This document shows, piece after piece, positions 20,017 through 38,171 of a stretch of 40,943 nucleotides of DNA. Source of the DNA: an uncultured Alphaproteobacteria bacterium (GTDB lineage: Bacteria; Pseudomonadota; Alphaproteobacteria; HIMB59). Each line of letters begins with the position of its first letter. Within the stretch, counting starts at the first letter, position 1. Under the pieces are notes generated by a model. That model was not told the DNA's origin. It made no database searches and worked only from the letters and a program-made list of their open reading frames with translations. The stretch is taken from assembly GCA_902527545.1 (NCBI GenBank), contig CABZPR010000011.1, forward strand, positions 1 through 40,943, read 5' to 3'. The position numbers and the translations under genes were made by a program.

Positions 20017-20021
20017 TGAGT

Positions 20022-21806: not shown

Positions 21807-21818
21807 TAATTACTTAAA

Positions 21819-22979
21819 TTAAAGTAATGCTTCTCCACGATCGAAGAAATTATTTAGATATTCATCACTTGCCCAGTTTTCAATTCCAACAGTTCTAAAC
21901 TCACTTGAGTTTCTGTCACAATCTTCAGGAACAAAAGACTGAATAGTCTCAACATCTTCTTCATATGGAGGAACTAAAATAGACTGGATTTTAAGGCCCT
22001 GACCATACATAGTTCTTAAAAGAACATTCATCGCAAACTCTGCATCATCGCCAGGAGGCCATGCATAGACCGCTCTGTCGATAAAGTCTGGATTATTTCT
22101 CCAATAGCAGAATGCACCAATTTCTCCACCCAAAGCCATAGGCACCATTGGTCTTCCAGATGATTCTAGAGCGTTAAGTGCTCCGGACTCTCCTGAAGAC
22201 TGAACAGCAAATCCGTCAACTTGAGTTGTGTTAGCTGATAACCATTTTTGAAGTTCAGCTTGAGCAATTTGTGGTGTCCACATGTGTGCAATTTCAGCAA
22301 CAACAGTTATGTCTGGATATTCTGCAAATCCATCTAGCATACCTTGGTGCTGTGAGTCAGATGCTGATGTTCCAGGAATTCCTTCCATAATAACAACATT
22401 ACCTTCACCACCAATAGTTTCTGCTAACCATTGTGCAATATAATATCCGGTTAATTTGTAGTTAACAGATGTACTGATAGCATATTCTGAAGTTAAGTAT
22501 CCTGTCATTGAAGCAGTAGGAACACCTTTTCCGTATGCATACTCAATAGTTGGATTTAATGCAACAGGATTTGAGCAACAGACTATTAATCCATCAACTC
22601 CTTGATCAGTTAACTGTCTCATTTGTTGAATTTGAACCGCGTCTTTTAGATTAGATTGTGTAACAACGATATCGTTAAGAATACCTGCTGCTTTCATTTT
22701 TGGTAAATAGTCACCATACAATCTTTCCATCACACCTTTTCTCCATAGATTACCTGCGTAAGAACTTGCATAACCGATAGTCCAAGGAAGTGGTCTATCA
22801 CTTTTCCAATTTCTGTATACACTTTCACCAAGCGGTTGGTTAGGATCCATAAAGTCAGGATTATAAACGAAGTCTCTAATATCAGCTGGAATTTCGTCTA
22901 AAATGTCAGCATTTAAGTTACCTGCGACACCGACAAAACTAACAGCTAAAATAGCTATGAACTTTTTAAGCAATGTCAT
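21819..22979 (-). CDS. Periplasmic substrate-binding protein of ribose-type ABC importer
   Basis: The ATG at 22979 is preferred over a longer reading from 23060: it has a perfect AAGGAGG site and starts a signal peptide (MTLLKKFIAILAVSFVGVAG, cleavage near LNA). The mature protein of about 365 residues has the type I periplasmic-binding fold of sugar importers: WTIGYASSYAGNLWRKGV, the QIQQMRQLTDQGVDGLIVC segment, VVIMEGIPGTSASDSQHQG and GFAVQSSGESGALNAL. Ligand identity cannot be read; relatives bind sugars, polyols or nucleosides, yet its gene neighbours here are lactam/amide enzymes. It is first in the leftward operon and the most strongly ribosome-signalled gene there. Confidence 0.9.
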   Translation of the reverse strand: MTLLKKFIAILAVSFVGVAGNLNADILDEIPADIRDFVYNPDFMDPNQPLGESVYRNWKSDRPLPWTIGYASSYAGNLWRKGVMERLYGDYLPKMKAAGILNDIVVTQSNLKDAVQIQQMRQLTDQGVDGLIVCCSNPVALNPTIEYAYGKGVPTASMTGYLTSEYAISTSVNYKLTGYYIAQWLAETIGGEGNVVIMEGIPGTSASDSQHQGMLDGFAEYPDITVVAEIAHMWTPQIAQAELQKWLSANTTQVDGFAVQSSGESGALNALESSGRPMVPMALGGEIGAFCYWRNNPDFIDRAVYAWPPGDDAEFAMNVLLRTMYGQGLKIQSILVPPYEEDVETIQSFVPEDCDRNSSEFRTVGIENWASDEYLNNFFDRGEALL

Positions 22980-22986
22980 AGTTTTA

Positions 22987-22994
22987 TCCTCCTT
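22987..22994 (-). promoter_or_regulatory. Strong Shine-Dalgarno sequence of the binding-protein gene
   Basis: The minus strand reads AAGGAGGA, ending seven bases before the ATG at 22979. It is among the best matches to the 16S anti-SD in the window, where many genes have weak or no such site. It decides the start codon and predicts high translation, as is usual for periplasmic binding proteins. Confidence 0.8.
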
Positions 22995-23009
22995 ACTTAT
23001 ATATAAGTA
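22994..23009. repeat. Perfect 16-base palindrome next to the binding-protein ribosome site
   Basis: The bases read TACTTATATATAAGTA; all eight pairs match. It borders the Shine-Dalgarno of the leftward operon, within its 5' leader. It might be an operator or an RNA hairpin in the leader, but its A+T content makes chance occurrence quite possible. Confidence 0.35.
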
Positions 23010-23051
23010 TTTATAATAATACCTATATTCTGAAAAATATAAGCAAAATTG

Positions 23052-23066
23052 TTCCAACATGTGGAA
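23052..23066. repeat. Inverted repeat TTCCA-N5-TGGAA, candidate operator
   Basis: Two perfect five-base arms flank ACATG. The site sits six bases upstream of the proposed -35 of the rightward pxpA operon and in the middle of the divergent region, where one regulator could control both arms. The arms contain the only G+C-rich symmetry in this region. Confidence 0.4.
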
Positions 23067-23126
23067 AAGATTTTCACATAAAAGCCTGATTTTCTGTAAA
23101 TTATAAATGAGAGGAATTTGTTATTC

Positions 23127-23912
23127 ATGGTCGATTTGAATTGCGATATGGGTGAGGGTTTTGGTATTTACTCCTTCGCAGATGACGAAGAAATAATGCC
23201 TTATATAGATGCTGCTAATGTAGCCTGTGGGTTTCACGCCTCAGACCCAAACACAATGAGGAAAACTGTCGAGCTTGCAAAAAAATATGATGTGAAAGTT
23301 GGATCGCACCCTGCCTATCCTGACTTAGTAGGATTTGGAAGAAGGCCGATGAAAATGAAACGTGATGAAATCAAAAATCTTGTGATGTATCAAACTGGTG
23401 CCATCAAAGCCTTTCTTGATGAGTATGGAATGCCATTAAACCATATCAAACCTCATGGATCTTTATATGGTGTCTCCGCGAAAGAGGAAGATGTGGCTCA
23501 TGGAATTGCTGACGCAGCTGAAATTTTTAATGTTGGTATTTTCGGAATGGTTAATACTTTTCACGAAAAAGTATACAAAGAAAGAGGAATAAAATTTTAC
23601 GGAGAATTTTACTCTGACTTGGAATATGATGAAACAGGTTATTTGGTTATAGCCAAGGGTCGAAATAAATATTATCCAACTGATAGAGCTGTGGAGCGTT
23701 GTTTAAGAGCAATGAATGAAAATAAAGTTAAAACTGTTCAAGGAAACGATGTAGTTGTAGGATGTGAAACAATTTGTGTCCACTCTGACACTCCTAATGC
23801 TGTAGAAATCTTAAAGGCTCTGAGAGAAAAAATTTCCTCTGATAAAAAAATTCCACAAAAAACTTCAAACGGCAATCATACCAAAATGCCTTATATCGTT
23901 GATAAGAAATGA
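23127..23912 (+). CDS. pxpA: 5-oxoprolinase subunit A / LamB-YcsF family protein
   Basis: An upstream in-frame TTG at 23118 is possible, but the ATG at 23127 gives the family's usual start (VDLNCDMGEGFG) and has GAGG at a suitable distance. The 261-residue product has the YcsF hallmarks: ANVACGFHASDP, KVGSHPAYPDLVGFGRR, HIKPHGSLY and the C-terminal VCVHSDTP-type motif (here ICVHSDTPNA). PxpA is the likely hydrolase subunit of ATP-dependent 5-oxoprolinase, acting with PxpB and PxpC. It begins the rightward arm, while its partners are on the leftward arm. The biotin carboxylase follows with an ATGA overlap. Confidence 0.92.
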   Translation: MVDLNCDMGEGFGIYSFADDEEIMPYIDAANVACGFHASDPNTMRKTVELAKKYDVKVGSHPAYPDLVGFGRRPMKMKRDEIKNLVMYQTGAIKAFLDEYGMPLNHIKPHGSLYGVSAKEEDVAHGIADAAEIFNVGIFGMVNTFHEKVYKERGIKFYGEFYSDLEYDETGYLVIAKGRNKYYPTDRAVERCLRAMNENKVKTVQGNDVVVGCETICVHSDTPNAVEILKALREKISSDKKIPQKTSNGNHTKMPYIVDKK

Positions 23913-25411
23913 AAAAAATTTTAATTGCTAATCGCGGTGAAATAGCAAATAGAATTATAAAAAGTTGTAAAATATTAGGTCACAAATCTGTAGCTGTTTA
24001 TTCAGATGCAGATAAGAATTCAAAGCATGTAAGATTATCTGACGAGTCTTATTATATAGGACCTAGTAAAGCTCAGGAAAGTTATCTTTCTTACAATAAG
24101 ATTTTAGAAATAGCTACAAAATCAAATGTGGATGCTATTCATCCTGGTTTTGGTTTTTTATCGGAAAACGACACTTTTGCTCAAGAGGTTATAGACAGAG
24201 GTATCACATGGATTGGTCCAAAACCAAAATCAATAAAATCAATGGGAAATAAGGATATTGCTCGTGAATTGGCTTTAAATTCCAATATTCCTATTTGTCC
24301 AGGCATAAATAATGTTCACAAATTAAGTGATGAACAACTTAAGACAAAATGTGAAGAGATTGGCTACCCTTTACTTGTAAAATCAAGTGCTGGCGGTGGG
24401 GGGATAGGCATGAGCGTCGTCCAAAATTTCAAAGACCTAGCCAATTCAATTGAAAAAACTAGTAATCTTGCTGCAAAATCTTTTGGTAATGGAGATATTT
24501 TTATTGAGAAATTTATCACCAACGCTCGACATATAGAGATACAAGTTTTTGGATTTGGTGCAAAAGGATCTGTGCATCTGTTCGAAAGAGATTGCTCTAT
24601 GCAAAGAAGATATCAAAAGATAATTGAGGAGTCTCCGGCACCAGAGGTAGATAGAGAATTAATAAATAATATGGCAAAAGCCGCTGTAAAATTATCTTCT
24701 GATGTAAATTACGAAGGAGCCGGAACTGTAGAGTTCATATATGATGTTCAAGAAATGAAATATTATTTTCTTGAGATGAATACAAGAATTCAAGTTGAAC
24801 ATCCTGTTACAGAGTTAGTGACAAATAATGATTTAATTTCTATGCAAATAAATTTTGCTTTTAATAGAAAAAATAAATTTTTAAATCAAAATAAAATTAA
24901 AACTTATGGACATTCAATTGAATGCAGAGTCTATGCAGAGGATCCATCTCAAAATTTCTTACCATCTCCAGGAAAAATAACTAAATTAAAGTTTCCTAAA
25001 ATACCAAATGGCATAAGACTAGATTGGGGATACGATGAAAGAGATGAAGTAAGTTTCTATTATGATCCGATGATAGGAAAAATTATATCTCACGACTTAA
25101 TTCGAGACGATGCTATATCCAAATTAATAAAATTTTTAGAAGGCACTCAGATTGAGGGCATTAAGACAAACATCCCTTTTTTAATTTGTCTTCTCAAAGA
25201 CAAAAACTTCATAGATGGTAAACACAACACTAAATATATCGAAAATAATTTAAACACTCTTATTAGTAAGATATCTTTTAAAAATGGCTTTACTAAAAAT
25301 ATTGATTTGGACTCAAAGAGAATTAAAATTGTTGAAACAGACAAACTTAAAGTAGGTCATAGAAGATCGCAGTCTGACAGAGGGGGTATCAAAGTCGTTT
25401 ATTTTGACTAA
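23909..25411 (+). CDS. Biotin carboxylase of the pxp locus
   Basis: The 500-residue protein is a biotin carboxylase: ILIANRGEIANRII at the start, HPGFGFLSEN, the ATP-grasp glycine loop SSAGGGGIGMS, MQRRYQKIIEESPAP, and EMNTRIQVEHPVTE with the catalytic region. The loop reads GGIGM rather than the GGRGMR of acetyl-CoA carboxylase AccC; from memory the GIGM form is found in urea-carboxylase-type enzymes. A C-terminal stretch of about 50 residues extends beyond the usual core. It should carboxylate the 72-residue carrier encoded on the other arm. The location between pxpA and the ABC permeases indicates a dedicated, not housekeeping, enzyme. Confidence 0.9.
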   Translation: MKKILIANRGEIANRIIKSCKILGHKSVAVYSDADKNSKHVRLSDESYYIGPSKAQESYLSYNKILEIATKSNVDAIHPGFGFLSENDTFAQEVIDRGITWIGPKPKSIKSMGNKDIARELALNSNIPICPGINNVHKLSDEQLKTKCEEIGYPLLVKSSAGGGGIGMSVVQNFKDLANSIEKTSNLAAKSFGNGDIFIEKFITNARHIEIQVFGFGAKGSVHLFERDCSMQRRYQKIIEESPAPEVDRELINNMAKAAVKLSSDVNYEGAGTVEFIYDVQEMKYYFLEMNTRIQVEHPVTELVTNNDLISMQINFAFNRKNKFLNQNKIKTYGHSIECRVYAEDPSQNFLPSPGKITKLKFPKIPNGIRLDWGYDERDEVSFYYDPMIGKIISHDLIRDDAISKLIKFLEGTQIEGIKTNIPFLICLLKDKNFIDGKHNTKYIENNLNTLISKISFKNGFTKNIDLDSKRIKIVETDKLKVGHRRSQSDRGGIKVVYFD

Positions 25412-25416
25412 TTATA

Positions 25417-27690
25417 ATGGTTAATCAACTTGTAGCAGCAATAAAACCCTCTCAAATTCCAGGTTCTGATCCCCAGTCAACAAAATACTTAATCGTTCCA
25501 ATATTTATATTTTTTGCCCTAATGATTTTTGCAATGATTAGAGGACCACAAATAATTTCAGGCTCGGGTATTGGAACTGCAATTATGGTTTCAACACCTC
25601 TTATTCTTGCTACTTATGCTCTTACTGCGTTGGCTTTAGCCGGCAGAGTGACAGTCGATTTATCAATAGGACCACTTATTGGTTTTATTAATGTAACGAC
25701 AATACAACTTTATGCTGCAGGTTACATTCAATCGCCAGTTGCGTATTTCATATGTGCTCTTGCAATAGGAGTAATTTACCAATTTCTTTATGCCTTAATC
25801 GTAATTTTTATTAGAGTTCAACCAATAATAGTTGCCTTAAGTATGTTTCTTGCTTTCTCTGGTATCAATTTAGTTATTTTACCAAGACCAGGAGGTAGAG
25901 CACCTGATTGGATGTTATCTTGGAGCGCTGGAACTGAGGTAGTACAACCCACACTGATACTTTTGATTTTCTCGACACTTATTTGGTATGCACTAACTCA
26001 TACTGCTTACTGGCAACATTTAAAATTAATGGGTTCAGATGAAAAGTCTGCTTATACAAGTGGAGTGAGAATTTACATTGTAAGAATTGGTGCTCATATT
26101 ATCGGTGGAGTTTACGCTGCACTCGCAGCTATTGCTTTTACAGGTTTGATTGGTTCTGGAGACCCAACTCAAGGTACTACTTATACATTGATGGCAGTTA
26201 CAGCACTTGTATTAGGTGGGTCAAGTTTAATTGGTGGAAGAGGCGGTGCGTTTGGAGCTATTCTAGGTTCAGTTAACATTTATTTGATAAATTTTATTCT
26301 ATCAACTTTTAGGTTTGAAAGATTTCAAAGTTTTGTAACAGACTTATCATATGGTGCGGTATTGGTGGCTTCTCTTTTAATACTTATTGCGCTTCCTTAT
26401 ATTCAAAAAGCATTCAAAAATTTATCAGTTTTTGTATTTTTTATTATTGGAACATTAAGTGCTGCTGCTGTTCAAATTCATATGAAATTTGATCAAGTAA
26501 CCAGAGGGACTGTGGGAGGTTTTGGAGGTAAATCTAAAGATGCTGAAATTTTTGAAAAAGCTCTTGAGTCCGGGAGTGATTGTTTAATCACAGGTAAGGC
26601 ATGCGCAGAGGGTGGAAATTCTACAGTGTGGATGTTTATTGCTATCGGAATAGCAGCCTTGATTTATCTCGTCTATTTGCTTGTTAAACATAGAGATGGC
26701 CCAACAGTGTCTTTTATTATTGCAGCAATTGTTATTTTCTTCGGTTGTGTTTGGAGTGGCACGAGAGAGGCTTATTTTGTTAACGCTGATTTGGGTACCA
26801 ACTTACAATATATTTTAAATTATGCTCCTCAGTATTTTACATCTGAATATCTAAGAGTTGGTGCGGGATTGCCTGATTTTTCATCTTCCTCGAGTGCTTT
26901 GGTTGGCCTCGCTTACGCTGTCGCAACTTTAGGAGGAATAGTTTTCTTTACATCTGCGATAGTAATAATTGCTATGCCAAGATTTAGAAAAGAAATCAAA
27001 ACACAAACATTGGTATTATTTGCAATAGCAATTTCATTTATTGTATTTGCTGCAATATCTTATTACGGAATTGAGTCAAATAGACAGAGTTTCTTCGGCA
27101 TAGATGGATACGCTGTAATACTAATTTTATTTTTACTTTTTTTACTCACGGCACCAACTCTTTTTTCGAATATCAATTTGAATAATGTTTTCATTATTTT
27201 CCTCGGTGTATTAGCAATACTCGCTGTATACTTTTTAGCCTCACCATCTGGAACAATTATTACTGATGATGGAAGTAAGTTTTACTCTCCAATTATTACA
27301 GAATTAATTGTTGGCGATACATCATCAATCAACTATACAAGACCTATACGAGGAGAATTTATCACAAGTGATGTTACTTGGCTTAAAGAAGCAGCTCTAA
27401 TTATATTCGCAATATTTGTATTTCAATTTTTTACATATTTAACAATGGGAGCAAAAATATCATTTGCTAGATTCAGACCTTACATTGCTATTTTAAGTAT
27501 AGCTGCATTAACATGGTCTGCGATGTTCTTCGCAATTGGTTATCCTTATTGGAAAATGATTTTAATTACTGCAATTGGAATAGCTATTTCGCCTCTGATA
27601 TGGCAAGCGTTTGGTGTTTATAAAATAAAATTAAAATCTCAAGAAGGACTTGAAAAATGGGGAGGTCTATCAGAAGATAGAAAAGTTTAG
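25417..27690 (+). CDS. Large ribose-type ABC importer permease with extra C-terminal membrane domain
   Basis: The first ~340 residues form an RbsC-type permease (BPD_transp_2): VDLSIGPLIGF, VQPIIVALSMFLAF, and the coupling-region glycine pattern LVLGGSSLIGGRGGAFGAILG. Family permeases are about 320-350 residues long; here 400 more residues follow, with roughly eight to ten further predicted membrane helices and at least two soluble loops (one with Cys at DCLITGKAC, one around DDGSKFYSPIITELIVGD). I do not recognise that second domain. No second coupling motif is evident, so it may be an accessory rather than a second permease unit. It begins five bases after the biotin carboxylase stop with no clear ribosome site. 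Confidence 0.85.
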   Translation: MVNQLVAAIKPSQIPGSDPQSTKYLIVPIFIFFALMIFAMIRGPQIISGSGIGTAIMVSTPLILATYALTALALAGRVTVDLSIGPLIGFINVTTIQLYAAGYIQSPVAYFICALAIGVIYQFLYALIVIFIRVQPIIVALSMFLAFSGINLVILPRPGGRAPDWMLSWSAGTEVVQPTLILLIFSTLIWYALTHTAYWQHLKLMGSDEKSAYTSGVRIYIVRIGAHIIGGVYAALAAIAFTGLIGSGDPTQGTTYTLMAVTALVLGGSSLIGGRGGAFGAILGSVNIYLINFILSTFRFERFQSFVTDLSYGAVLVASLLILIALPYIQKAFKNLSVFVFFIIGTLSAAAVQIHMKFDQVTRGTVGGFGGKSKDAEIFEKALESGSDCLITGKACAEGGNSTVWMFIAIGIAALIYLVYLLVKHRDGPTVSFIIAAIVIFFGCVWSGTREAYFVNADLGTNLQYILNYAPQYFTSEYLRVGAGLPDFSSSSSALVGLAYAVATLGGIVFFTSAIVIIAMPRFRKEIKTQTLVLFAIAISFIVFAAISYYGIESNRQSFFGIDGYAVILILFLLFLLTAPTLFSNINLNNVFIIFLGVLAILAVYFLASPSGTIITDDGSKFYSPIITELIVGDTSSINYTRPIRGEFITSDVTWLKEAALIIFAIFVFQFFTYLTMGAKISFARFRPYIAILSIAALTWSAMFFAIGYPYWKMILITAIGIAISPLIWQAFGVYKIKLKSQEGLEKWGGLSEDRKV

Positions 27691-27693
27691 TAA

Positions 27694-29085
27694 ATGGAGA
27701 AAAGAACTCATAATTTTTTAAAAGGACTTGGAATTCTTTTTGCTGTTGCTGCTGGGATAGGTACTGCAGTTCTTGGTTATGTAGATAGAACTGATTGGAT
27801 ACAGGTTGCATTTTACTCTGTAGCTGTTGTCGCCATTATTCTTTGGGGCTGGCATTTTTTCTTAGTTAGATGGTCTTATCGATCTTTAGTAAAGGAAGAT
27901 GGATCTAAACCTCCTGAAACTACTGAAACCACAAGTAAAAGAAGCCTTTTTTGGGACCTCATTGCAAAGAACTGGATAGCTGTTACGGGATTTTTACTTC
28001 TTTTAGGCCTTTTTATATTACTATGTTTTTTGGTACCCGGGTTCTTCTCAGGTAGAACAGTCGTATCAGCAATCATATTATTAGGTTTTTTAATCTTAGC
28101 ATTTCTTGCTTACAAATTTTTAAACATTAACAAAAGCGTAATTATAGGAGTCGCCGTACTAGTTGGTCTTTTTATAATAGGATCAGTTTCTATTGATGGC
28201 TTCTTATCATTACAGAATATTAAATCTATGTTAGTTTTTGCTTCTTTCTTAGGAATTGCAACAATTGGACAGACATTAGTTGTGATGTTAGGCGGCCTCG
28301 ATTTATCAATACCATTTTTAATCGGAGCGACTAATTTAGGATTAATGTCACTTATTTCACTTGGAGTTCCTCCTTGGCTTGCGTTTATAGTTATTCTTGC
28401 ATTTGGCACGATCGTCGGGCTTTTTAATGGGTTGATAAGTTTTAACCTCCAAGGTCAATCACTAATAGTCACGCTTGGAGTTGGCTTCATGGTAGTAGGT
28501 GGAGTACAGATATTGGTATCACTTCCTACTGTTACAGGTGGAACTGTTTTTGGTGTTGTTCCAGATTGGTTAAAAAATTTGGCCTCATTAAATGGAAAAT
28601 TTTTTGGTCTTCCAATACCTCCAGTTATTTTAATTTGGATATTGATTTCAATTTTATTAATTGTTGGACTTAGACACACTAAGTGGGGAAGGAATTTATA
28701 TGCTGTTGGTGGAAAAAGGTTATCTGCTGACAGATTGTCAATTTCTGAGAGAGCATATTGGGTTGGAGTTTATGTCATTAGTGGATTTACCTCTGCAGCA
28801 ACCGGAGCAATGTTACTGGGTTGGAGCGGTGGAGGGTTCATTGGTGTAGGTGATCAATATTTATTTTTAACAGTGGCAGCTGTGGCTGTAGGAGGAACTT
28901 CCTTATTAGGTGGATATGGAGGATACGGCTTTACAGTAATCGGTGTTCTTGCACTGCAAGTAATTAGTACATTTTTGGCAGGTCTAGGCTTAAGTTTTGA
29001 GGGTCAGCAATTTATATTTGGTCTTCTTATTTTACCTCTTGTTGCTCTTTACTCCAGAGCACCCCATATTAGGGAGCAAATATAA
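27694..29085 (+). CDS. Ribose-type ABC importer permease
   Basis: The 463-residue integral membrane protein carries an RbsC-like permease from about residue 140 onward: TLVVMLGGLDLSIPFLIGAT, LIVTLGVGFMVVGGVQIL, VGGTSLLGGYGGYGFTVIG, and the cytoplasmic NLYAVGGKRLSADRLSI coupling region. Before it lie about 140 extra residues with some four predicted helices and a charged loop (KEDGSKPPETTETTSKRS), which ordinary RbsC lacks. With the 757-residue permease it would make a heterodimeric membrane channel for the ATPase encoded on the other arm. It is the last gene of the rightward pxp arm. Confidence 0.88.
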   Translation: MEKRTHNFLKGLGILFAVAAGIGTAVLGYVDRTDWIQVAFYSVAVVAIILWGWHFFLVRWSYRSLVKEDGSKPPETTETTSKRSLFWDLIAKNWIAVTGFLLLLGLFILLCFLVPGFFSGRTVVSAIILLGFLILAFLAYKFLNINKSVIIGVAVLVGLFIIGSVSIDGFLSLQNIKSMLVFASFLGIATIGQTLVVMLGGLDLSIPFLIGATNLGLMSLISLGVPPWLAFIVILAFGTIVGLFNGLISFNLQGQSLIVTLGVGFMVVGGVQILVSLPTVTGGTVFGVVPDWLKNLASLNGKFFGLPIPPVILIWILISILLIVGLRHTKWGRNLYAVGGKRLSADRLSISERAYWVGVYVISGFTSAATGAMLLGWSGGGFIGVGDQYLFLTVAAVAVGGTSLLGGYGGYGFTVIGVLALQVISTFLAGLGLSFEGQQFIFGLLILPLVALYSRAPHIREQI

Positions 29086-29208: not shown

Positions 29209-29216
29209 ATGAATAA
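29184..29216 (+). CDS. Possible ten-residue leader peptide overlapping the rhodopsin start
   Basis: The frame MYLRGISFNE starts at 29184, nine bases after a GAGG at 29171-29174, and stops at 29214-29216, just inside the rhodopsin gene (ATG at 29209). Such an arrangement could couple translation of the rhodopsin to a short leader. It is too short to judge by composition and may be chance. Confidence 0.2.
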   Translation: MYLRGISFNE

Positions 29217-29910
29217 AATGCTTCTCCCTTACGACATTGTAGGGGGGTCTTTCTGGTTAATTTCTGTTGGCATGATTGGTGCCACATTGTTTTTCTTTTT
29301 TGAGCGTAGCAAAGTAAGCACAAGATTTCATACACCGATGACAATGATAGCTGTTGTATGCTTGATGTCCTCTATACATTATTTTTTCGTAAAAAATCTC
29401 TGGGTAGTCAGCGGCACCGCCCCGACTTTATTAAGATATATAGATTGGTTTCTTAACTTTCCAATGCTTGTGCTTATTTTTTATGCAATGCTTATGTCAG
29501 TTGTCAAAGTTAAACAAGGCATGTTCTGGAGATTATTGGTTGGAACTTTAGTTTTTGTTGTAGCAGGTTTCTTAGGTGCAGCTGGTTATATGAGCAAGAC
29601 ATTAGGTTTCATTGTTTGGTTAGCTGGATGGTTGTACATCCTCGGTGAGCTATATGTTGGAGAGGCCGGAAGAGCAAATGCTAGATGCGGAAACGAAAAT
29701 GTACAAATGGTTTTCTTCTCGAACAGACTTATTATTACAATTGGATGGGCTATATATCCAATGGGATATTTCATAGAGCATTTGGGCGGGGGCATTGACC
29801 CCAATAGTGTTAATGTGATTTATAATTTAGCAGACTTTTTAAATAAAATAGTTTTTGGTTTAATAATTTACAAAGCAGCAATACAAGACATGAGAGTTAA
29901 TGGACAATAA
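29209..29910 (+). CDS. Proteorhodopsin-family microbial rhodopsin with Asp-Asn-Ile helix-C motif
   Basis: The 233-residue seven-helix protein aligns along its whole length with proteorhodopsin. Retained residues are the helix-B His57 (HYFF), helix-C Asp79 (RYIDW, proton-acceptor position 97), helix-G Asp209 and the retinal Lys213 (NLADFLNK). In place of the usual Thr101 and Glu108 it has Asn83 and Ile90; the tuning position 105 is Leu87, the green-absorbing type. Without a carboxylate proton donor, fast pumping is doubtful; a slow photocycle, sensor or modified pump is possible. The N-terminus lacks the cleavable signal of classical proteorhodopsin. It is followed at 27 bases by a flotillin gene. 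No retinal-synthesis gene is in the window. Confidence 0.93.
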   Translation: MNKMLLPYDIVGGSFWLISVGMIGATLFFFFERSKVSTRFHTPMTMIAVVCLMSSIHYFFVKNLWVVSGTAPTLLRYIDWFLNFPMLVLIFYAMLMSVVKVKQGMFWRLLVGTLVFVVAGFLGAAGYMSKTLGFIVWLAGWLYILGELYVGEAGRANARCGNENVQMVFFSNRLIITIGWAIYPMGYFIEHLGGGIDPNSVNVIYNLADFLNKIVFGLIIYKAAIQDMRVNGQ

Positions 29911-29937: not shown

Positions 29938-31926
29938 ATGAACATTACTAGTGGTGCAGATATTATTGCAATAATAATCTTAATAGCGTTAGCAATAGCA
30001 ATTATAGTTTACTTGCTACATTGGCTGTACAGGCGTTCCTCAAAGGAAATAGCGTTTGTTAGAACTGGTATGGGAGGTGAACAAGTTGTGATCAGCGGAG
30101 GTGCCTTCGTTTTGCCTATTATTCATAACATTACCTCAGTGGGTATGAAAACTCTTTGTATAGAGGTTCAACGAAACGGAAGTAAATCTTTTATCACAAA
30201 AAATAGAATGAGGGCTGAAGTAACCGCTGAATTCTACGTTAGAGTAGCGCCTACAACTGAAGCTGTCTCAATAGCCGCGCAAACATTGGGAAATAGAACA
30301 CTAGAGCCTGATCATTTAAAAGAACTTGTTCAAGGTCGTTTTGTTGATGGATTAGGTGTTGTTGCCGCAAAAATGAGCCTTGATGAAATTCAAGAGAATA
30401 GATCTGAGTACATTAAAAATGTTGCATCTCATGTTGAAGAAGCAATTAAGCACACTGGTTTGGAGTTAGAGACCGTGTCTTTGACATCTCTTAACCAAGC
30501 TCCCGTGGGTGTATTCGACCCTTCAAATACATTTGATGCTGAGGGTTTAACTCAAATTACAGAATTTACTCAGTCACGTAAAAAGAAAAGAAATGATATT
30601 GAGAAAGATACAGAGGTAAGTATTCGAAATAAAAACCTCCAATCTATCAAGCAAACTCTTGAAATTGAAAAAGAGGAAGAATTTTCAAAGTATCAACAAA
30701 AACGTGAAATTGAACAACAAAGAGCTATCGAAAATACTGAGACAGTAAAAACAAAAGCTGAGAAAGACAAAGAGTCTGAGCTGGCTGAAATTTCCTCAGA
30801 AAAAGATATTGAGATAGCTAAGATTAGCAAGAAAGACTTTGTTGAGATGGAAAAAAGTTTACAAGAAACTAAACTTATCCAAGAAATTGAGAAAAGAAGA
30901 AAAGAACAAAATGAGTTTAAACAACAAACTTCTATCGAGATTAAACAGAAAGATATTGAGACAGAAAAAACTATTCTTGAATTGGAAAGAGATGTTGAAT
31001 TCAGTCGTCTAGAAAAACAAAGATCAGTTGATATTAAACTTGCTGAGGAAAAAGCTCAAACAGCAAAAGAAGAGGCTAGAAAAAGATATGAGTCTGAAGA
31101 GGCTTATATTATGGCTGAGGAGCAAATTAAAAATGCAAAAACTGCTCAACAGAAAAATGTTGATGCGTTCAAAATTGCCGCTGAGCAAGAGACAAGAGTC
31201 TTAGATATTGAAAAGGCAAAAAGAATAGAAATTGAAGAAAAGCAAAAACAAATGGAAGTCCTAGAAAAATCTAAGTCAGTCTTAAAAACTAAAATGGAAG
31301 AAGAAAATGCTCGCGCTAAGGCTGTAGAAGCTGAGGAAAAAGTCAACACCATTAGAGATGTTGAACAAGCTGAGAAGACAAAAGCTCTTGGAGTAATAGA
31401 CGCTAGTAAAAATGCTGAGAGAGAAAAGTTAGCATCGATGGCTGCGAAAATTAGATATGAAATTGAAGCAGCTGGCAAAAAAGCCCTAAATGAAGCGGAA
31501 AATGCTAGAAGTGATGCAAGTAGAAGAAGTGCACTTAGACAAAAACTCGCTGAAAAAATTGAGGGTATTATTAGAGAATGGGTTAGACCAATGCAAAACA
31601 TTGACTCAATTAAAGTTGTCGATGTAAATGGATTACCTGGATTTAGTCAAGGAGGAGGAGCTGAAGGAAGCGGCAAAGCTGATAACCCCTCTGCGTCCTC
31701 AGGTGGATATTCCAAAAAAGGATCTTTAGCAGATAATGTTGTGAATTCTGCTCTTCGATATAGAGCACAACAGCCGTTCTTAGATAGTCTTTTAAAAGAA
31801 ATTGGTATGTCGCCCGGTGAGGCAAGTAATATCAGGAATATTTTAGGTGACTACGATGATCCTAAGAAGGACAAGCATATGAGATTTGATGAACAAGCCA
31901 CAAAGACACCCAGGAAAAAGAAATAG
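29938..31926 (+). CDS. Flotillin-like SPFH-domain membrane scaffold protein
   Basis: The 662-residue protein has an N-terminal membrane segment (about residues 9-30, mostly Ile/Ala/Leu), an SPFH domain (about 34-200; starts at FVRTGMGGEQVVISGGAFV, a flotillin hallmark), then about 300 residues of Glu/Lys/Ala coiled coil and a C-terminal domain. A Gly/Ser linker lies near 568-592 and the end is basic (KKK). Flotillins oligomerise into cage-like membrane assemblies that organise lipid microdomains. The gene lacks the NfeD partner that usually accompanies bacterial flotillins. It sits 27 bases after the rhodopsin and ten bases before an SCP2-like lipid-binding protein. Confidence 0.92.
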   Translation: MNITSGADIIAIIILIALAIAIIVYLLHWLYRRSSKEIAFVRTGMGGEQVVISGGAFVLPIIHNITSVGMKTLCIEVQRNGSKSFITKNRMRAEVTAEFYVRVAPTTEAVSIAAQTLGNRTLEPDHLKELVQGRFVDGLGVVAAKMSLDEIQENRSEYIKNVASHVEEAIKHTGLELETVSLTSLNQAPVGVFDPSNTFDAEGLTQITEFTQSRKKKRNDIEKDTEVSIRNKNLQSIKQTLEIEKEEEFSKYQQKREIEQQRAIENTETVKTKAEKDKESELAEISSEKDIEIAKISKKDFVEMEKSLQETKLIQEIEKRRKEQNEFKQQTSIEIKQKDIETEKTILELERDVEFSRLEKQRSVDIKLAEEKAQTAKEEARKRYESEEAYIMAEEQIKNAKTAQQKNVDAFKIAAEQETRVLDIEKAKRIEIEEKQKQMEVLEKSKSVLKTKMEEENARAKAVEAEEKVNTIRDVEQAEKTKALGVIDASKNAEREKLASMAAKIRYEIEAAGKKALNEAENARSDASRRSALRQKLAEKIEGIIREWVRPMQNIDSIKVVDVNGLPGFSQGGGAEGSGKADNPSASSGGYSKKGSLADNVVNSALRYRAQQPFLDSLLKEIGMSPGEASNIRNILGDYDDPKKDKHMRFDEQATKTPRKKK

Positions 31927-31935
31927 GTATAAAAC

Positions 31936-32325
31936 ATGAGTATAGATGTAAAATCCTGGGCAAAAAAATATAAAGAGCTTACTGAAAAAGATGAAACCAT
32001 AAAAGCGATGGCTAAATATTATACTTGTTCATTTCTTTTCGACATGGGTAGTGTGAAAGTAATTATCGAGATGCATGATGGAAAGGTAAAAAATATTAAT
32101 ACCAACCCTGGTGGTTTAGATCCATATGACTTTGCATTAAGGGCATCAGAGCAAACATGGAGAGAGTTTGCAAAGCCTGTTCCAAAACCTATGTTTCATG
32201 GTATCTATGCAGCCTCATTTAGAGAAGACCTTAAAATCGAGGGCAATCATTTAGTCTTAATGCAAAATCTTAGAAACTTTACTGTTCAATTTGAATTGCT
32301 AAGACAATCAGGAGTCCCAGTATGA
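31936..32325 (+). CDS. SCP2-like (sterol-carrier-type) domain protein
   Basis: The 129-residue soluble protein resembles a lone SCP2 fold: FLFDMGSVKVIIEMHDGKVKNI gives the beta-sheet part, followed by DFALRASEQTWREFAKPVPK and a C-terminal amphipathic helix near LMQNLRNFTVQFELLRQ. SCP2 domains bind lipids or other hydrophobic ligands in a tunnel. Its position ten bases after the flotillin suggests a lipid-handling partner for the membrane scaffold, although similar proteins also occur beside hydrolases of unknown role. No signal peptide is present, so it is cytoplasmic. The family call rests on fold-like patterns, not on a catalytic motif. Confidence 0.65.
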   Translation: MSIDVKSWAKKYKELTEKDETIKAMAKYYTCSFLFDMGSVKVIIEMHDGKVKNINTNPGGLDPYDFALRASEQTWREFAKPVPKPMFHGIYAASFREDLKIEGNHLVLMQNLRNFTVQFELLRQSGVPV

Positions 32326-32350: not shown

Positions 32351-33214
32351 ATGGCAGTAAAACATCATGACCCAATAGGTAGATACGTTACCATCGAGGT
32401 AGATGGTCAACAGTATAAAGTCTTTTATCTTTCAAATGGAAAAGGCACTCCATTAGTATGTCAGCATACTGCTGGATGCCACAATCATCAGTGGAGAGGA
32501 TTACTGGAAGATGAAGAAATTACTCAAAATTATCAAGTTATCGCTTACGACCTTCCAAGACATGGTAAATCAGATCCACCTCATAATACAGAATGGTGGA
32601 AAGAGGAATACAAATTAACAGCAGAGCATTACTGTAATTTTATTGTAGAACTTTGTAAGGCCTTAGACCTTGAAAACCCTATATTTATGGGTTCTTCTTT
32701 TGGAGGAAACGTGGCTCTTCAATTAGCTCTGAAGTATCCTAATAAATTTAAAGCTGTGATCCCTGTCGAGGCTGCGCATTATTCCCCTGGCTTTTATATT
32801 GATTGGTGGAGGCATCCTCATGCCAATGCAGCTCAAGTGTGTGGTAGTGGTGTTTGGGATTTAATGGCCCCACAATCTCCAGATATGGATAGATGGTTAA
32901 CTTGGCATTATTACACTCAAGGATCAGAGGCTTTTAAAGGAGACCTTCATTTTTATTCAGTTGATCATGATTTAAGAGATGAGCTACAAAATATCGATGG
33001 TCACAAGTGCCCTGTTATCATGCTGACTGGTACTTATGACTACCTAACCCCTCCCGAAGCAACAGAAGATACTGCCAGACAAATAAAAGGAGGAGTTTAT
33101 ATTGAAATGAGAGATATTGGTCATTTCCCGATGAGTGAAAACCATGAAGTCTTTAGAGTATATTTATTAGAGGCACTCAGAATTATTAAGGAAAAGACTG
33201 ATTACAACTCTTAA
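32351..33214 (+). CDS. Alpha/beta-fold hydrolase
   Basis: The 287-residue hydrolase has the nucleophile elbow GSSFG (Ser116), an Asp in GTYDYLTPPEAT and a late His in DIGHFPMSENHE, so the catalytic triad is complete. The oxyanion region is around CQHTAGCHNHQW, an unusual His/Cys-rich stretch. The AAAGGA site and 25-base gap tie it to the SCP2 gene. Substrates of this fold range from esters and lactones to amides; next to an N,N-dimethylformamidase-like enzyme an amide or ester side-reaction is plausible. No signal peptide is seen. The exact activity is unknown. Confidence 0.88.
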   Translation: MAVKHHDPIGRYVTIEVDGQQYKVFYLSNGKGTPLVCQHTAGCHNHQWRGLLEDEEITQNYQVIAYDLPRHGKSDPPHNTEWWKEEYKLTAEHYCNFIVELCKALDLENPIFMGSSFGGNVALQLALKYPNKFKAVIPVEAAHYSPGFYIDWWRHPHANAAQVCGSGVWDLMAPQSPDMDRWLTWHYYTQGSEAFKGDLHFYSVDHDLRDELQNIDGHKCPVIMLTGTYDYLTPPEATEDTARQIKGGVYIEMRDIGHFPMSENHEVFRVYLLEALRIIKEKTDYNS

Positions 33215-33228
33215 TTCAAGTTTGAGTT

Positions 33229-35283
33229 ATGGTCGCTAATCTTTATTGGTTTTTTTTCTTTCTTGTCCTTTATATAAGCTTTTGTCTTTTTTGGGGAGCT
33301 AGAACTCTTAGAAAAAATAAAACCCCTGAGGCTTACTATTTAGCAGATAGAAGTGTATCTCCTTGGGTATTCTTTTTCTCTGCAACAGTAACTACATTTG
33401 CAGGCATAACTATCATTTCTTTTCCATCATTAATTTATGCAGATGGATACTCTTTTCTAGCTACTGCTGCAATTGTAATAACAATTCCTCTTGGAAGTAT
33501 ATTATTTTTTAAAAGGCAGTGGATGTTAAGTAGAAAATTTAATTTTATCACTCCAGGAGAGATGTATTATAAATATTATCAAAGTAATACTCTTAGAATT
33601 GTAGTACTAATAATCGGATTATTTTTTGCTGTTCCATTTCTTGGTATAATTATTGGATCAACAGGTAATGTTGTAGAGTTTATTAGCGGAGGTGAAATAA
33701 CCAGAGACTCTGCAATGTGGGCACTAACTGCTGTTGTCTTATTTTATATAGTATCTGGTGGATTTAAACCCATGGTGAGTGTAAGCGTTGTTCAATCATG
33801 GTTATTTTTTGTTTTTTTCTTAGCACTTGGTGTTGGTGTATTTAATTACTTAGGAGGTTTAAGTTTTTTTGAAGACCTATCTATGGCGAACAGTTTTATG
33901 TCGTTTGGAGCTTGGGGAACTACTGGAGGTTACGGAGGCGGTGATATTTCAGGATATTTCAACGTTCCTGGTGTAATTCAGTGGGTTGCAGGTATTGGAA
34001 AAAATAACCCGTTAGGAGGCCCTTGGACAGCAGTTATGATTTTATCCTTTACTCTCTCTTATATGGGTATTGTGCTTTCTCCTACATTTTCGATGTGGAG
34101 CTATTCAGTAAAATCACCGAGGTCATTTTATTTTTACCAAGTTTGGGGTTCAGGTGCTGTTGTTGGAATATTTTTATTTATATTCGCCCCTTTATTAGGT
34201 GTTGGAGCACATCTTCTTGGAGCTAATAGTATTGTTAATTCAAATGGTTTTGCCATTAACCAAATATTCCCTGAGTTAAGTTTACAAAATATATCATCTT
34301 TAATTTATGTGTTTGTTGAAAGCTTTAGCAATCTCTCACCAATTATTGTTGGATTTTTAGCAATATCCATAATTGCTGCGCTGCAATCTACATTATCTGC
34401 TTTTTTAATGACTTCAGGCAGCATGGTGGCAAGAGATCTCTATAGACCATATATCGATAGTAACCCTACATGGAAAAGGGAGTTATTAGTTGCTAGGTTA
34501 GCGATGTTGTTATTAAGCCTAGCGGCATTGTATCTTGCAACTTTTTTTGAAACTTCTCTAATATTACTTGGTGGATTAGCAATCGCTTTTGGTTTCCAAT
34601 TATTTCCTGTTTTACTTGGAATGCTTTGGTTTAAATGGATCACAAGAGGTGGGGCAATTCTAGGACTCATCACCGGATTAGGTTTTGTAACTTTAGCTGA
34701 AACTTTTGGTCATAAGCTAACAGGAAATTCTCTTCCTTGGGGGCGATGGCCACTAACAATCTACTCTGGTTTATGGGGTTTATTCTTTAATGTGATTGTA
34801 TGTTTTTTATCCTCTATATTTGCAAGTAACGATACAGATAAAGAACATCGAGCATCATTCCACAATTTTTTAAATGAACATATGGGTATTCACCCATCAA
34901 GAAAAAAAATAAAATCTCTCGCCTATGTCTTTTTTTTAATTTGGGCATTCTTTTCTATTGGTCCAGGTTTAATTTTTGGAAACTTAATATTTGGTAGCGC
35001 GGATCAAAGTTATGATAATTGGGTGATGGGAGTCCCTTCACTATGGGCTTACCAAATAATTTGGTGGGTAGCAGGTATATTTCTAATTTGGTTTTTAGCT
35101 AATAAGATGGACTTATCGACTTTGCCAAAAAAACCTATACTAAATGGTGATGAATATTTGGCACCTGACGATGTTGAGGAACAAGGAAACTATATTGATA
35201 GAATGGGAGGCGGATATGGTTGGCCACTTATATTAATAGGAATGGCTGTGGCAACTGTAATACTTTCCGTTTATGCATTATGA
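33229..35283 (+). CDS. Sodium:solute symporter (SSF family)
   Basis: The 684-residue membrane protein has about 14 predicted helices. Helix 2 region FFSATVTTFAGITIISFPSL and the later LSAFLMTSGSMVARDLYRPY segment are typical of the SSF family (sodium-coupled uptake of sugars, amino acids, pantothenate, choline and others). The C-terminal part, including a domain after residue about 530, is longer than in PutP or SglT. Its place between a hydrolase and the dimethylformamidase-like genes suggests it imports that pathway's substrate. A sodium-driven carrier next to a rhodopsin is worth noting, because light-driven ion gradients could energise it. The substrate is not readable. Confidence 0.88.
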   Translation: MVANLYWFFFFLVLYISFCLFWGARTLRKNKTPEAYYLADRSVSPWVFFFSATVTTFAGITIISFPSLIYADGYSFLATAAIVITIPLGSILFFKRQWMLSRKFNFITPGEMYYKYYQSNTLRIVVLIIGLFFAVPFLGIIIGSTGNVVEFISGGEITRDSAMWALTAVVLFYIVSGGFKPMVSVSVVQSWLFFVFFLALGVGVFNYLGGLSFFEDLSMANSFMSFGAWGTTGGYGGGDISGYFNVPGVIQWVAGIGKNNPLGGPWTAVMILSFTLSYMGIVLSPTFSMWSYSVKSPRSFYFYQVWGSGAVVGIFLFIFAPLLGVGAHLLGANSIVNSNGFAINQIFPELSLQNISSLIYVFVESFSNLSPIIVGFLAISIIAALQSTLSAFLMTSGSMVARDLYRPYIDSNPTWKRELLVARLAMLLLSLAALYLATFFETSLILLGGLAIAFGFQLFPVLLGMLWFKWITRGGAILGLITGLGFVTLAETFGHKLTGNSLPWGRWPLTIYSGLWGLFFNVIVCFLSSIFASNDTDKEHRASFHNFLNEHMGIHPSRKKIKSLAYVFFLIWAFFSIGPGLIFGNLIFGSADQSYDNWVMGVPSLWAYQIIWWVAGIFLIWFLANKMDLSTLPKKPILNGDEYLAPDDVEEQGNYIDRMGGGYGWPLILIGMAVATVILSVYAL

Positions 35284-35388: not shown

Positions 35389-35817
35389 ATGTCTGATTAC
35401 AGCTACAAGCATCCCTCAAACGTCCAATTAAATAAAGGACATAAACACACTGATGATTTTATTACCAAAAAATACATTTTAAAAATGTTGAGAGATCCTC
35501 AAAAATTAAAATCTTTAATTGAAGAACACAGAGCAACTCCAGTTGGAAGGGCTGCTACTCGAGACCATGGTGTCATTCAGCATAGCCAAGATCTCCAAAC
35601 ATTATTAGATAAGTTAAGAAGAGGAAGTAAAGAAAATGGTTTTGTAACTGTTTGTTTAAGAAGGCATGAAGATTATAGAGTTGGAATAACAACAGGAGTT
35701 AGAGGTGAGCCAGTTGAAATAACTGAAGACTCTTATTCATCTGAAGAGGCATGTGAACATGCAATATTTTTAAAAAGAATTAACAGACTTCTTGAGGAGT
35801 ATAGTGGGGAAGAGTAA
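35389..35817 (+). CDS. dmfA1: N,N-dimethylformamidase-like alpha (small) subunit
   Basis: The 142-residue basic, helical protein precedes and overlaps (TAATG) the large dimethylformamidase-like subunit, the same order and sizes as the alpha (about 15 kDa) and beta subunits of bacterial N,N-dimethylformamidase. Sequence features are a helix with RDPQKLKSLIEEHRATP, a middle LLDKLRRGSKENGFV and an acidic C-terminal helix (SSEEACEHAIFLKRINRLL). The small subunit has no catalytic residues; in the known enzyme it packs around the large one. The call depends mostly on context. A possible promoter region of about 100 bases, with TATATTTAAAATATAAT just before the ATG, lies upstream. Confidence 0.7.
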   Translation: MSDYSYKHPSNVQLNKGHKHTDDFITKKYILKMLRDPQKLKSLIEEHRATPVGRAATRDHGVIQHSQDLQTLLDKLRRGSKENGFVTVCLRRHEDYRVGITTGVRGEPVEITEDSYSSEEACEHAIFLKRINRLLEEYSGEE

Positions 35818-38171
35818 TGTTAAAAATAACAGGTTATAGCGATAAGTACTCAGCTCATCCAGGTGAAGAAGTTAAATTTTATATTAATGCAGAATACAAT
35901 GATAGTTATGAAGTTCAATTAGTCCGTCTTATACACGGTGATACAAATCCTGAAGGCCCTGGGTATAAAGAAGCTGAAATAGATGCCAGTTGTAATGGAG
36001 CTTATCAAGGGAAAAACCAGAGAATACATGGTGGATCGTACATCATCATGCCTCAGCATGATAATTTAAATTTAGAGAGCTTTACTATGCAAGCTTATAT
36101 TTTTCCTACAACGCCAGATAAAGGTAGACAAGGAATTTTCACTAAATTTAATGAAGAAGAAAAAAAAGGCTATGGTCTCTTCATTAATGATGAGGGATGT
36201 TTATCTGTAGAAATAGGAGATGGATCTCAGGTTGTTACTGTCTCCTCAGAAAAAAAACTTTTAAGAAAAGTTTGGTATCTGGTAATTGCAACATTTGATG
36301 CACAATCAAGAAGGCTTACCCTTCACCAAGAACCTAGGGTTACATCCACAAATGGTGGTTTAGGTATGGCTATTTTGAATCCAATTGAAGAAACCTCAGC
36401 TATTATTGAGACCACTAGTTCAGTTTTACCTGCCGCTAATGATGCTCCATTGTTAATTGCAGCTACTACATTAAATAATAGATCTGGTAGGCACATTTCC
36501 GGAGGTCATTTTAAAGAAGTACCTCATCCCATTGAATTACCTGAGCAAACCAAGACTTTTAATGGCAAGATAGACAGACCTAGATTATCTAATATCGCGC
36601 TATCGAAGGCTGAGATCGAAACACTTGCATCAAGCTATGATGAGTGTAATACCACTGTCAGGTCAACAGTCGTAGGCGCTTGGGACTTTCATGCGAATAT
36701 TGGCAAAAACATTGCTTCAACAAAGATTGTTGATACTTCTCCAAATAATCACCACGGATTTATTATTAATATGCCAAACAGAGGTATGACAGGACATAAC
36801 TGGACAGCGGATGAAATGGTTTTCCATCACAAACCTGAAGAGTACGGAGCTATCCATTTCCATGATGATGATATCGATGATGCAAGATGGGATGTTGATT
36901 TTACATTAAAAATCCCAGAGGGTCTGAAAAGTGGTGTGTATGCTGCTCGACTTAGAGTTGATGGAAGAGAAGAGTCAGAAAATGAAGATTATATTCCTTT
37001 TTGTGTAAAACCTCCAAGAGGGAAAGCCACAGCTAAAATTTTATTTCTCTTACCCACAAACAGTTATATGGCTTACTCCAATGATAATCTTGGAACTAAT
37101 TCTGTCGTAGCTCAATTACTCGCAGGTAAAGTTCCTGTGCTAGAACCTGCAGATTTATATTTAAATGAACACAGAGAATATGGTTTATCAACTTACTCAC
37201 TTCACTCTGATGGACATGGTGTATCTATTTCATCAAGACTTAGACCAATCCTTAATATGAGACCTAAATACAGACACTGGCTTTCTCCATCATTATGGCA
37301 ACTAAATGCCGACTTACATTTAACAGACTGGCTTGAGGAAAAGGGCTTTGAGTTTGATGTTCTTACAGATGAAGATTTGGAACATGAAGGTATAAATTTA
37401 TTAAATCGTTATAAAGTCGTGATGACTGGAAGTCACCCTGAGTATTCATCTGAGAAATATATGGACGCCTTAGAGTCCTATCAAATGCAAGGTGGTAGAT
37501 GTTTTTATTTAGGTTCGGATGGATTTTACTGGATTAGTGAATATCATCCAGACAACTCCAATATTACTGAAGTACGAAAAGGTGAGGCTGGCACAAGAGC
37601 ATGGACATCTAACCCAGGTGAATACAATAATGCCTTTGATGGTAAATATGGAGGTATGTGGAGAGCTCGAGGAAGAATACCTTCTAAAGTTTGTGGTTTA
37701 ACTTTTACATCATATGGATTTGACGTTTCTTCATACTACAAAAGAGAAGAAGATAGCTTTAAACCTGAATGTTCATGGATCTTTGAAGGGATTGGAGCAG
37801 ATGAGGTTATTGGTGACTTTGGTTTAGTTGGTGGAGGAGCTGCTGGTTTAGAATTAGATAGGTACGACTTAGAGTTTGGAACTCCACATAATGCATATTA
37901 TTTGGCTCGTTCACAAGATCACTCTAATATGATGTTGCAAGTTAACGAGGAAATACACTTTGCTGTTCGCGGCTACTATGGCGGTGGTCATGAAAATCCA
38001 ATGGTAAGAGCTGATATGATTTACTATAAAACACCTAATAACGGAGCTATGTTTGCACCAGGGTCTTTGGCTTGGTGCGGTAGTCTTTCACATAATAATT
38101 ATAATAATAATGTCTCTAGAATTATGGAAAACACTCTTAAAGGTTTTTTAAAGGACGGGCCTTTACCTTAA
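35817..38171 (+). CDS. dmfA2: N,N-dimethylformamidase-like beta (large, catalytic) subunit
   Basis: The 784-residue protein has an N-terminal beta-rich domain, a LamG/concanavalin-like domain (about 60-280; LESFTMQAYIFPT and LRKVWYLVIATFDA) and a C-terminal catalytic domain from about 400. From memory the known enzyme (about 760 residues) holds a mononuclear iron with two Tyr, a Glu and a nearby His in an H-x-E motif. Here Tyr420 (NSYMAYSN), Tyr460 (STYSLHSD) and His540-Pro-Glu542 (GSHPEY) have about the right spacing. The enzyme class hydrolyses dimethylformamide or other small amides to formate (or an acid) and an amine. Marine homologues may have other amide substrates. No signal peptide is present. 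Confidence 0.8.
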   Translation: MLKITGYSDKYSAHPGEEVKFYINAEYNDSYEVQLVRLIHGDTNPEGPGYKEAEIDASCNGAYQGKNQRIHGGSYIIMPQHDNLNLESFTMQAYIFPTTPDKGRQGIFTKFNEEEKKGYGLFINDEGCLSVEIGDGSQVVTVSSEKKLLRKVWYLVIATFDAQSRRLTLHQEPRVTSTNGGLGMAILNPIEETSAIIETTSSVLPAANDAPLLIAATTLNNRSGRHISGGHFKEVPHPIELPEQTKTFNGKIDRPRLSNIALSKAEIETLASSYDECNTTVRSTVVGAWDFHANIGKNIASTKIVDTSPNNHHGFIINMPNRGMTGHNWTADEMVFHHKPEEYGAIHFHDDDIDDARWDVDFTLKIPEGLKSGVYAARLRVDGREESENEDYIPFCVKPPRGKATAKILFLLPTNSYMAYSNDNLGTNSVVAQLLAGKVPVLEPADLYLNEHREYGLSTYSLHSDGHGVSISSRLRPILNMRPKYRHWLSPSLWQLNADLHLTDWLEEKGFEFDVLTDEDLEHEGINLLNRYKVVMTGSHPEYSSEKYMDALESYQMQGGRCFYLGSDGFYWISEYHPDNSNITEVRKGEAGTRAWTSNPGEYNNAFDGKYGGMWRARGRIPSKVCGLTFTSYGFDVSSYYKREEDSFKPECSWIFEGIGADEVIGDFGLVGGGAAGLELDRYDLEFGTPHNAYYLARSQDHSNMMLQVNEEIHFAVRGYYGGGHENPMVRADMIYYKTPNNGAMFAPGSLAWCGSLSHNNYNNNVSRIMENTLKGFLKDGPLP

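Follow-up and report, generated by a model that had tools for sequence, protein, structure and literature searches.

A HIMB59 flotillin-associated rhodopsin with a putatively filled retinal cavity and a possible light-independent role beside uptake genes

The rhodopsin gene at positions 29209..29910 of the 40,943-nucleotide stretch analysed here (the window), which comes from an uncultured alphaproteobacterium of the HIMB59 lineage, encodes a flotillin-associated rhodopsin (FArhodopsin, FAR) of the HIMB59 DNI subgroup, a kind of protein that is already known. We favour, with a probability of roughly 0.6, a reading in which this FAR is a seven-transmembrane (7TM) protein that works independently of light as a partner in a flotillin patch serving uptake genes. 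The protein would fold like a proteorhodopsin, with side chains (F84 and W137 in the window protein, F/H84 and E/Q120 in its relatives) filling the retinal cavity, so that it would work without light; it would then bind flotillin and play a structural or regulatory part in a membrane patch scaffolded by flotillin, and this patch would serve the uptake genes of the FAR gene cluster, namely an ABC importer, a symporter and genes of amide or lactam catabolism.

FArhodopsins were named in 2023, and the main text of PMC10308929 gives their motifs as DTT in Pelagibacterales, DTL in Pseudothioglobus and DNI in HIMB59/AEGEAN-169, each with an adjoining flotillin gene. The first-pass annotation of this DNA, which had presented DNI as a group it did not recognise, is refuted on this point, since this motif has been published for the FArhodopsins of HIMB59.

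Gene, protein and structural model

The open reading frame is intact, lies on the forward strand and encodes a type-1 rhodopsin with a Pfam Bac_rhodopsin match (PF01036, 1.1e-31); its N terminus is shorter than that of the pump paralogue (open frames of 235 and 260 aa, respectively). Alignment with proteorhodopsins bears out the helix-C register D79/N83/I90 of the first-pass annotation, along with its H57, D209 and K213, and we take Asp79, Asn83, Leu87 and Ile90 to be the equivalents of D97, T101, position 105 and E108 of proteorhodopsin (PR). The helix-C signature of a proton pump, Asp-Thr-Glu or another carboxylate donor, is absent from the window protein. Coordinates of the gene, its key codons and its neighbours are collected in Table 1.

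Table 1. Features in and around the FArhodopsin gene of the window
Feature	Position	Strand	Remarks
Two genes with CT_A_B and CT_C_D carboxyltransferase domains	17786..20016	-	
ABC importer ATPase (ABC_tran)	20022..21806	-	two ABC_tran stretches
ABC importer periplasmic binding protein (Peripla_BP_4)	21819..23060	-	
LamB_YcsF and biotin carboxylase genes	23118..25411	+	
Second ABC importer permease (BPD_transp_2)	25417..27690	+	
ABC importer permease (BPD_transp_2)	27694..29085	+	immediately upstream of the rhodopsin gene
FArhodopsin gene	29209..29910	+	233 aa, motif DNI
Asp79 codon	29443..29445	+	aligned helix C
Asn83 codon	29455..29457	+	aligned helix C
Phe84 codon	29458..29460	+	V in 31/31 distinct DTE pumps; H in PsFAR
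Leu87 codon	29467..29469	+	tuning site
Ile90 codon	29476..29478	+	aligned helix C
Gly120 codon	29566..29568	+	G in pumps; E in DNI FARs with Q87 and in PsFAR; Q in DTT-type FARs
Trp137 codon	29617..29619	+	G in 31/31 distinct pumps and 45/58 distinct marine-type FARs
Lys213 codon	29845..29847	+	Schiff-base lysine position
Flotillin gene	29938..31926	+	662 aa, Band_7 and Flot domains; 27 bp downstream of the rhodopsin gene, same strand
p129 of the cluster, conserved 129-aa protein	31936..32325	+	without Pfam match
Alpha/beta hydrolase of the cluster	32351..33214	+	
Sodium:solute symporter (SSF)	33229..35283	+	
N,N-dimethylformamidase-like gene (DMFA2_C)	35817..38171	+	

By sequence, the best PDB matches of the window protein are 9r23 (E 1.6e-91) and 9r21 (9.7e-91), both titled 'flotillin-associated rhodopsin', and the same two entries are its best matches by fold when a structure model is used that was built from a 57-row alignment (pLDDT 90.5), from which L039 (a MAG copy with a non-matching N-terminal part), L138 and L130 were left out. 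Only 7 rows went into an earlier model, which was set aside for its low pLDDT of 53.1. The RNA fold of the spacer upstream of the rhodopsin gene showed nothing unusual (z 0.49), and promoter- and terminator-like matches occur near the gene.

Distribution, phylogeny and selection

Some match to the window protein, pumps included, is found in 125 of the 162 genomes of the order, and a FAR gene is carried by 38 of the 52 genomes of the window's genus (window genome included), so that the DNI gene is no sequencing accident. The motif, the synteny and neighbouring single-cell genomes lead us to place the window in HIMB59. The first-pass annotation had proposed following the motif across collections and building a tree: 37 of the 38 genus genes have DNI and one has DNV, and the DNI sequences form a clade. 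In a tree of 96 rows, with the mutant 9r23 and the truncated L130 left out, FARs including PsFAR make up a clade of 58 rows (support 98/99) apart from the proton-pump proteorhodopsins; within it lie the DNI clade of 17 rows (98/97) and the window's subclade of 13 rows (100/99). A second, unrooted tree of 44 rows, which omits L138, 9r23, L130 and rows more than 93% alike, groups its 11 FAR rows together (100/99).

Purifying selection on the window rhodopsin is strong, about as tight as that on the pump or tighter: omega ranges from 0.011 to 0.066 in 7 of 11 pairs with relatives (two with dS near 3 and hence unreliable; the other four pairs saturated) and from about 0.03 to 0.14 in four pump pairs.

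Two observations concern the spread of FAR types. One assembly, G118, holds a DNV-type FAR (L034, G118:C23) and a DTT-type FAR (L033, G118:C125) on separate contigs; the contig with the DTT-type gene clusters with Pelagibacterales and could be a contaminant (estimated contamination 4%). FARs with H84/E120 (L126, L128) are present in MAGs labelled, as deposited, Chromatiales and Hyphomicrobiales, beyond the three marine taxa in the main text of PMC10308929.

Residues of the retinal cavity

All of the retinal-binder residues Lys213, Asp79, Asp209, W180, Y183 and P184 are kept in the window protein. The 31 distinct DTE pumps invariably carry V84, G120 and G137, whereas all 58 distinct marine-type FARs combine F/H84 with either E/Q120 and G137 (45 sequences) or G120 and W137 (13 sequences), never with both blockers; 'marine-type' is our label, stretched to cover the three H-type sequences from MAGs, and this set of 58 includes the truncated L130 and omits PsFAR, the reverse of the 58-row tree clade. 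The combinations are constant within each type: F84, W116, Q120, G137, F180 and H184 in DTT-type FARs (38/38 distinct sequences), H84, E120 and G137 in H-type FARs (3/3), F84, F116, E120 and G137 in DNI/DNV FARs with Q87 (4/4), and F84, F116, G120 and W137 in DNI FARs with L87, the window's subclade (13/13), to which W137 is confined among the 58.

It seems, to judge from these residues, that the second cavity blocker moved from position 120 to position 137 in the window's subclade. A comparison of the two DNI subclades (12 and 4 distinct sequences, with the MAG copy L039 set aside) shows 14 fixed differences, among them positions 87, 117, 120 and 137, which presumably correspond to bacteriorhodopsin L93, I119, G122 and S141 and line the cavity. 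Cavity positions are weakly over-represented in this set (4 of 14, P 0.03); the comparison was post hoc and used a list of 22 cavity positions of bacteriorhodopsin, and its outcome supports the moved-blocker reading without proving it. By its title, PDB 9r23 is the 'double mutant H84V/E120G' of PsFAR, and 9r22 is the 'light-driven proton pump PsPR'; from these titles we infer that the double mutant was made to admit retinal. The glycine engineered at position 120 in 9r23 is natural in the window's lineage, but there it stands alongside W137.

Flotillin and the surrounding gene cluster

The flotillin gene of the window is the only Flot match in its genome (86.75% complete), the Flot profile PF15975 also ringing in 5 of 14 control genomes. 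Flotillin ORFs directly follow 122/122 non-DTE rhodopsins versus 0/9 DTE rhodopsins, many of these loci being one place taken from two collections, and none of the 31 distinct pumps has flotillin beside it within pump-locus flanks of only about 0.4-1.5 kb. In the loci compared, flotillin adjoins the rhodopsin in 91 of 91 (repeats of one place included), and p129 and the hydrolase then follow in 83; L129 and L179 are long loci that lack p129, and contig ends are possible in the remaining six. An importer permease is located immediately upstream of the rhodopsin in 48 of the 91 loci, namely those of HIMB59, the family f145, the genome G352, the Chromatiales MAG, the Hyphomicrobiales MAG and two DTT genomes (four loci), but the permeases are not adjacent in most Pelagibacterales loci, which argues against the importer link, nor in L129.

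The window holds the FAR gene cluster, with symporter, translocator, carboxylases, dimethylformamidase and a PxpA-like gene. We take the CT_A_B/CT_C_D genes to be of the 5-oxoprolinase type and LamB_YcsF to be of the PxpA type; these 5-oxoprolinase-type genes (CT_A_B, CT_C_D, YcsF and biotin carboxylase) are interleaved with the ABC importer at 17786-25411. Together with the dimethylformamidase-like gene, this stretch suggests that an amide or lactam is imported and opened.

A separate DTE proteorhodopsin (G000:C1) is encoded elsewhere in the window genome. A lycopene cyclase match lies about 2.5 kb past it and a BCD match about 3.6 kb past it, and this gene content indicates that the genome makes retinal. 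The lycopene-cyclase scan is unspecific, ringing in 8/8 genomes and in 10/14 control genomes, and is no proof that a beta-cyclase is absent from other genomes; the one match of the window genome spans profile positions 1-282 of 380, and the other listed matches at most 104 positions. In the control genomes, PF01036 and PF15461 ring in 0/14 and PF03055 in 2/14.

Flotillin-linked rhodopsins outside the marine clade

A phylum-wide draw gave matches in 12 of 398 genomes and a class-wide draw in 36 of 385. Flotillin-linked rhodopsins occur in G352 (3.8 Mb) and in G718, G804 and G874 (one family, f145; 4.0-4.5 Mb), which belong to the same class as the window, and each of these four genomes (96-100% complete) has a single PF01036 match, the flotillin-linked one. 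Profile searches of the four returned no BCD/Blh match; RPE65-family oxygenases are present in the three f145 genomes, and no RPE65 match was obtained in G352 (100% complete by estimate). The G352 rhodopsin (L179, G352:C33:154000-170000, rhodopsin at 7967-8701 on the minus strand) has Arg in place of the Lys and lies beside flotillin and an ABC importer, while the f145 rhodopsins (L176, L177 and L178) have pump-like V84/M116 but A120, with the motifs DTV, DTI and DTT.

None of the four belongs to the 58-row FAR clade: the G352 row has a very long branch, and f145 is placed between it and the remaining rows with weak support (94/51). When the long G352 row is removed, three groups appear (pumps, FARs and f145), and in this unrooted tree f145 may be read as sister to either FARs or pumps. 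If the G352 and f145 proteins are counted as FARs, it is because of f145 identity (52-54% to the window protein, versus at most 48% for pumps), the flotillin gene and synteny, with the binding protein, the ATPase and both permeases ahead of the rhodopsin and flotillin behind it, and not because of tree placement. Some f145 proteins may bind retinal in an open cavity; since f145 keeps V84 and M116 and has RPE65-family oxygenases, a single cavity rule for all FARs is weakened.

Within the marine clade, G139 (94% complete, window's genus) has one PF01036 match, the FAR; G118 (86%) has two, both FARs; and G001 (84%) and G004 (53%) have one FAR each. Missing contigs could explain these four cases.

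Possible functions

According to the hypothesis of PMC10308929, FAR and proteorhodopsin form a hetero-oligomer in a flotillin raft that tunes or boosts the DTE pump in dim light. A FAR and a DTE pump do coexist in the window genome, and the main text of that paper states that every SAG with a FAR also had a proteorhodopsin. We nevertheless hold this role to be improbable, its standing being lowered by the four nearly complete genomes outside the marine FAR clade whose sole rhodopsin is flotillin-linked, with the marine FAR-only genomes as weaker cases.

It also appears unlikely that the FAR binds retinal, possibly only together with flotillin or native lipids, and acts as a light sensor, a channel or a slow non-pump. 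Such a role would accord with the kept Lys213, Asp79, Asp209, W180 and Y183, with a G120 as in pumps and with the retinal predicted to be made by the genome, all of which oppose the retinal-free reading, and with the recruitment of the DNI cluster, which is highest in the light-rich upper photic zone (PMC10308929, main text). Against it stand F84 and W137 instead of V and G and a Pfam scan of 30 of the window's 36 ORFs of at least 100 aa, which gave no transducer gene. Moreover, DTT-T relatives produced in E. coli gave no pigment and no pH change, a result inseparable from misfolding (PMC5864233, as far as its text describes them). The AlphaFold models in the main text of PMC10308929 suggest that retinal may not fit FArhodopsin, for which non-binding was proposed. 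The first-pass annotation had read the motif as a sign of a slow photocycle or of a sensor, channel or other non-pump role. Its expectation that the protein is probably not an ordinary pump holds, and the window rhodopsin is likely a non-pump, for which the blocked-looking cavity is a better reason than the motif. A slow photocycle presumes bound retinal and is thereby weakened; a retinal-free role is likelier than one as sensor, channel or slow pump because residues 84 and 137 are bulky, because DTT relatives did not bind retinal when made in E. coli, and because one flotillin-linked homologue lacks the lysine.

Far less probable still is a chemical 7TM sensor whose cavity takes up another ligand, such as a short apocarotenoid, a fatty acid or the importer's substrate: the cavity residues are clade-specific yet fixed within each clade at most positions, and PDB 8cnk is by title a retinal-free proteo-opsin bound to decanoate, but the analyses run gave no evidence of a ligand or a transducer.

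The light-independent flotillin partner is thus our preferred reading. A more ambitious version, which we offer tentatively and would not yet expect to hold in full, is that selection keeps the cavity closed, E120 having been lost and W137 gained, and that FARs are a light-independent rhodopsin branch whose members act not as pump helpers but as 7TM partners in an ABC uptake complex organised by flotillin. Closure as a selected trait is suggested by the 120/137 difference fixed between sister DNI subclades and by the persistence of flotillin-linked rhodopsins, one without the lysine, as sole rhodopsins. The retinal-free reading makes testable the idea of a rhodopsin branch repurposed to work without light, and the clade-specific blockers at 84, 120 and 137 are a compact set of changes to try. 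Genomes with a flotillin-linked rhodopsin alone argue against pump assistance as a general function; if the G352 and f145 proteins are FARs, assisting DTE pumps would not be the general role, though possibly still a role in the sea.

Comparison with known systems

The open full-text literature, a scope that leaves aside preprints and most subscription journals, yielded nothing on the biochemistry of a DNI protein or on the 120/137 exchange. With the HIMB59 FArhodopsin of PMC10308929, the window protein shares the DNI motif, L or Q at the tuning site, the flotillin neighbour, the cluster genes and a DTE paralogue elsewhere; there is no difference in kind, and the split between G120/W137 and E120/G137 is absent from the main text of that paper. 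PsFAR (PDB 9r21), flotillin-associated by title, is 57-58% identical to the window protein, residues 1-229 of both being aligned, but has Thr83, Met90 and H84/E120/G137 in place of Asn83, Ile90 and F84/G120/W137. The Pelagibacterales DTT-T rhodopsins, as described in the text of PMC5864233 and PMC10308929, are a sister group inside the FAR clade and also have flotillin; unlike the window protein, they carry T83/T90 as well as the W116, Q120, F180 and H184 given above for the 38 distinct sequences, and in two of them Glu replaces Asp at position 79. The DTE proteorhodopsin of the window genome itself shares the fold, the Lys, the Asp and the His with the FAR at 49% identity, and differs in its V84/G120/G137, its Glu donor, the retinal-synthesis genes nearby and 1.5-kb flanks without flotillin.
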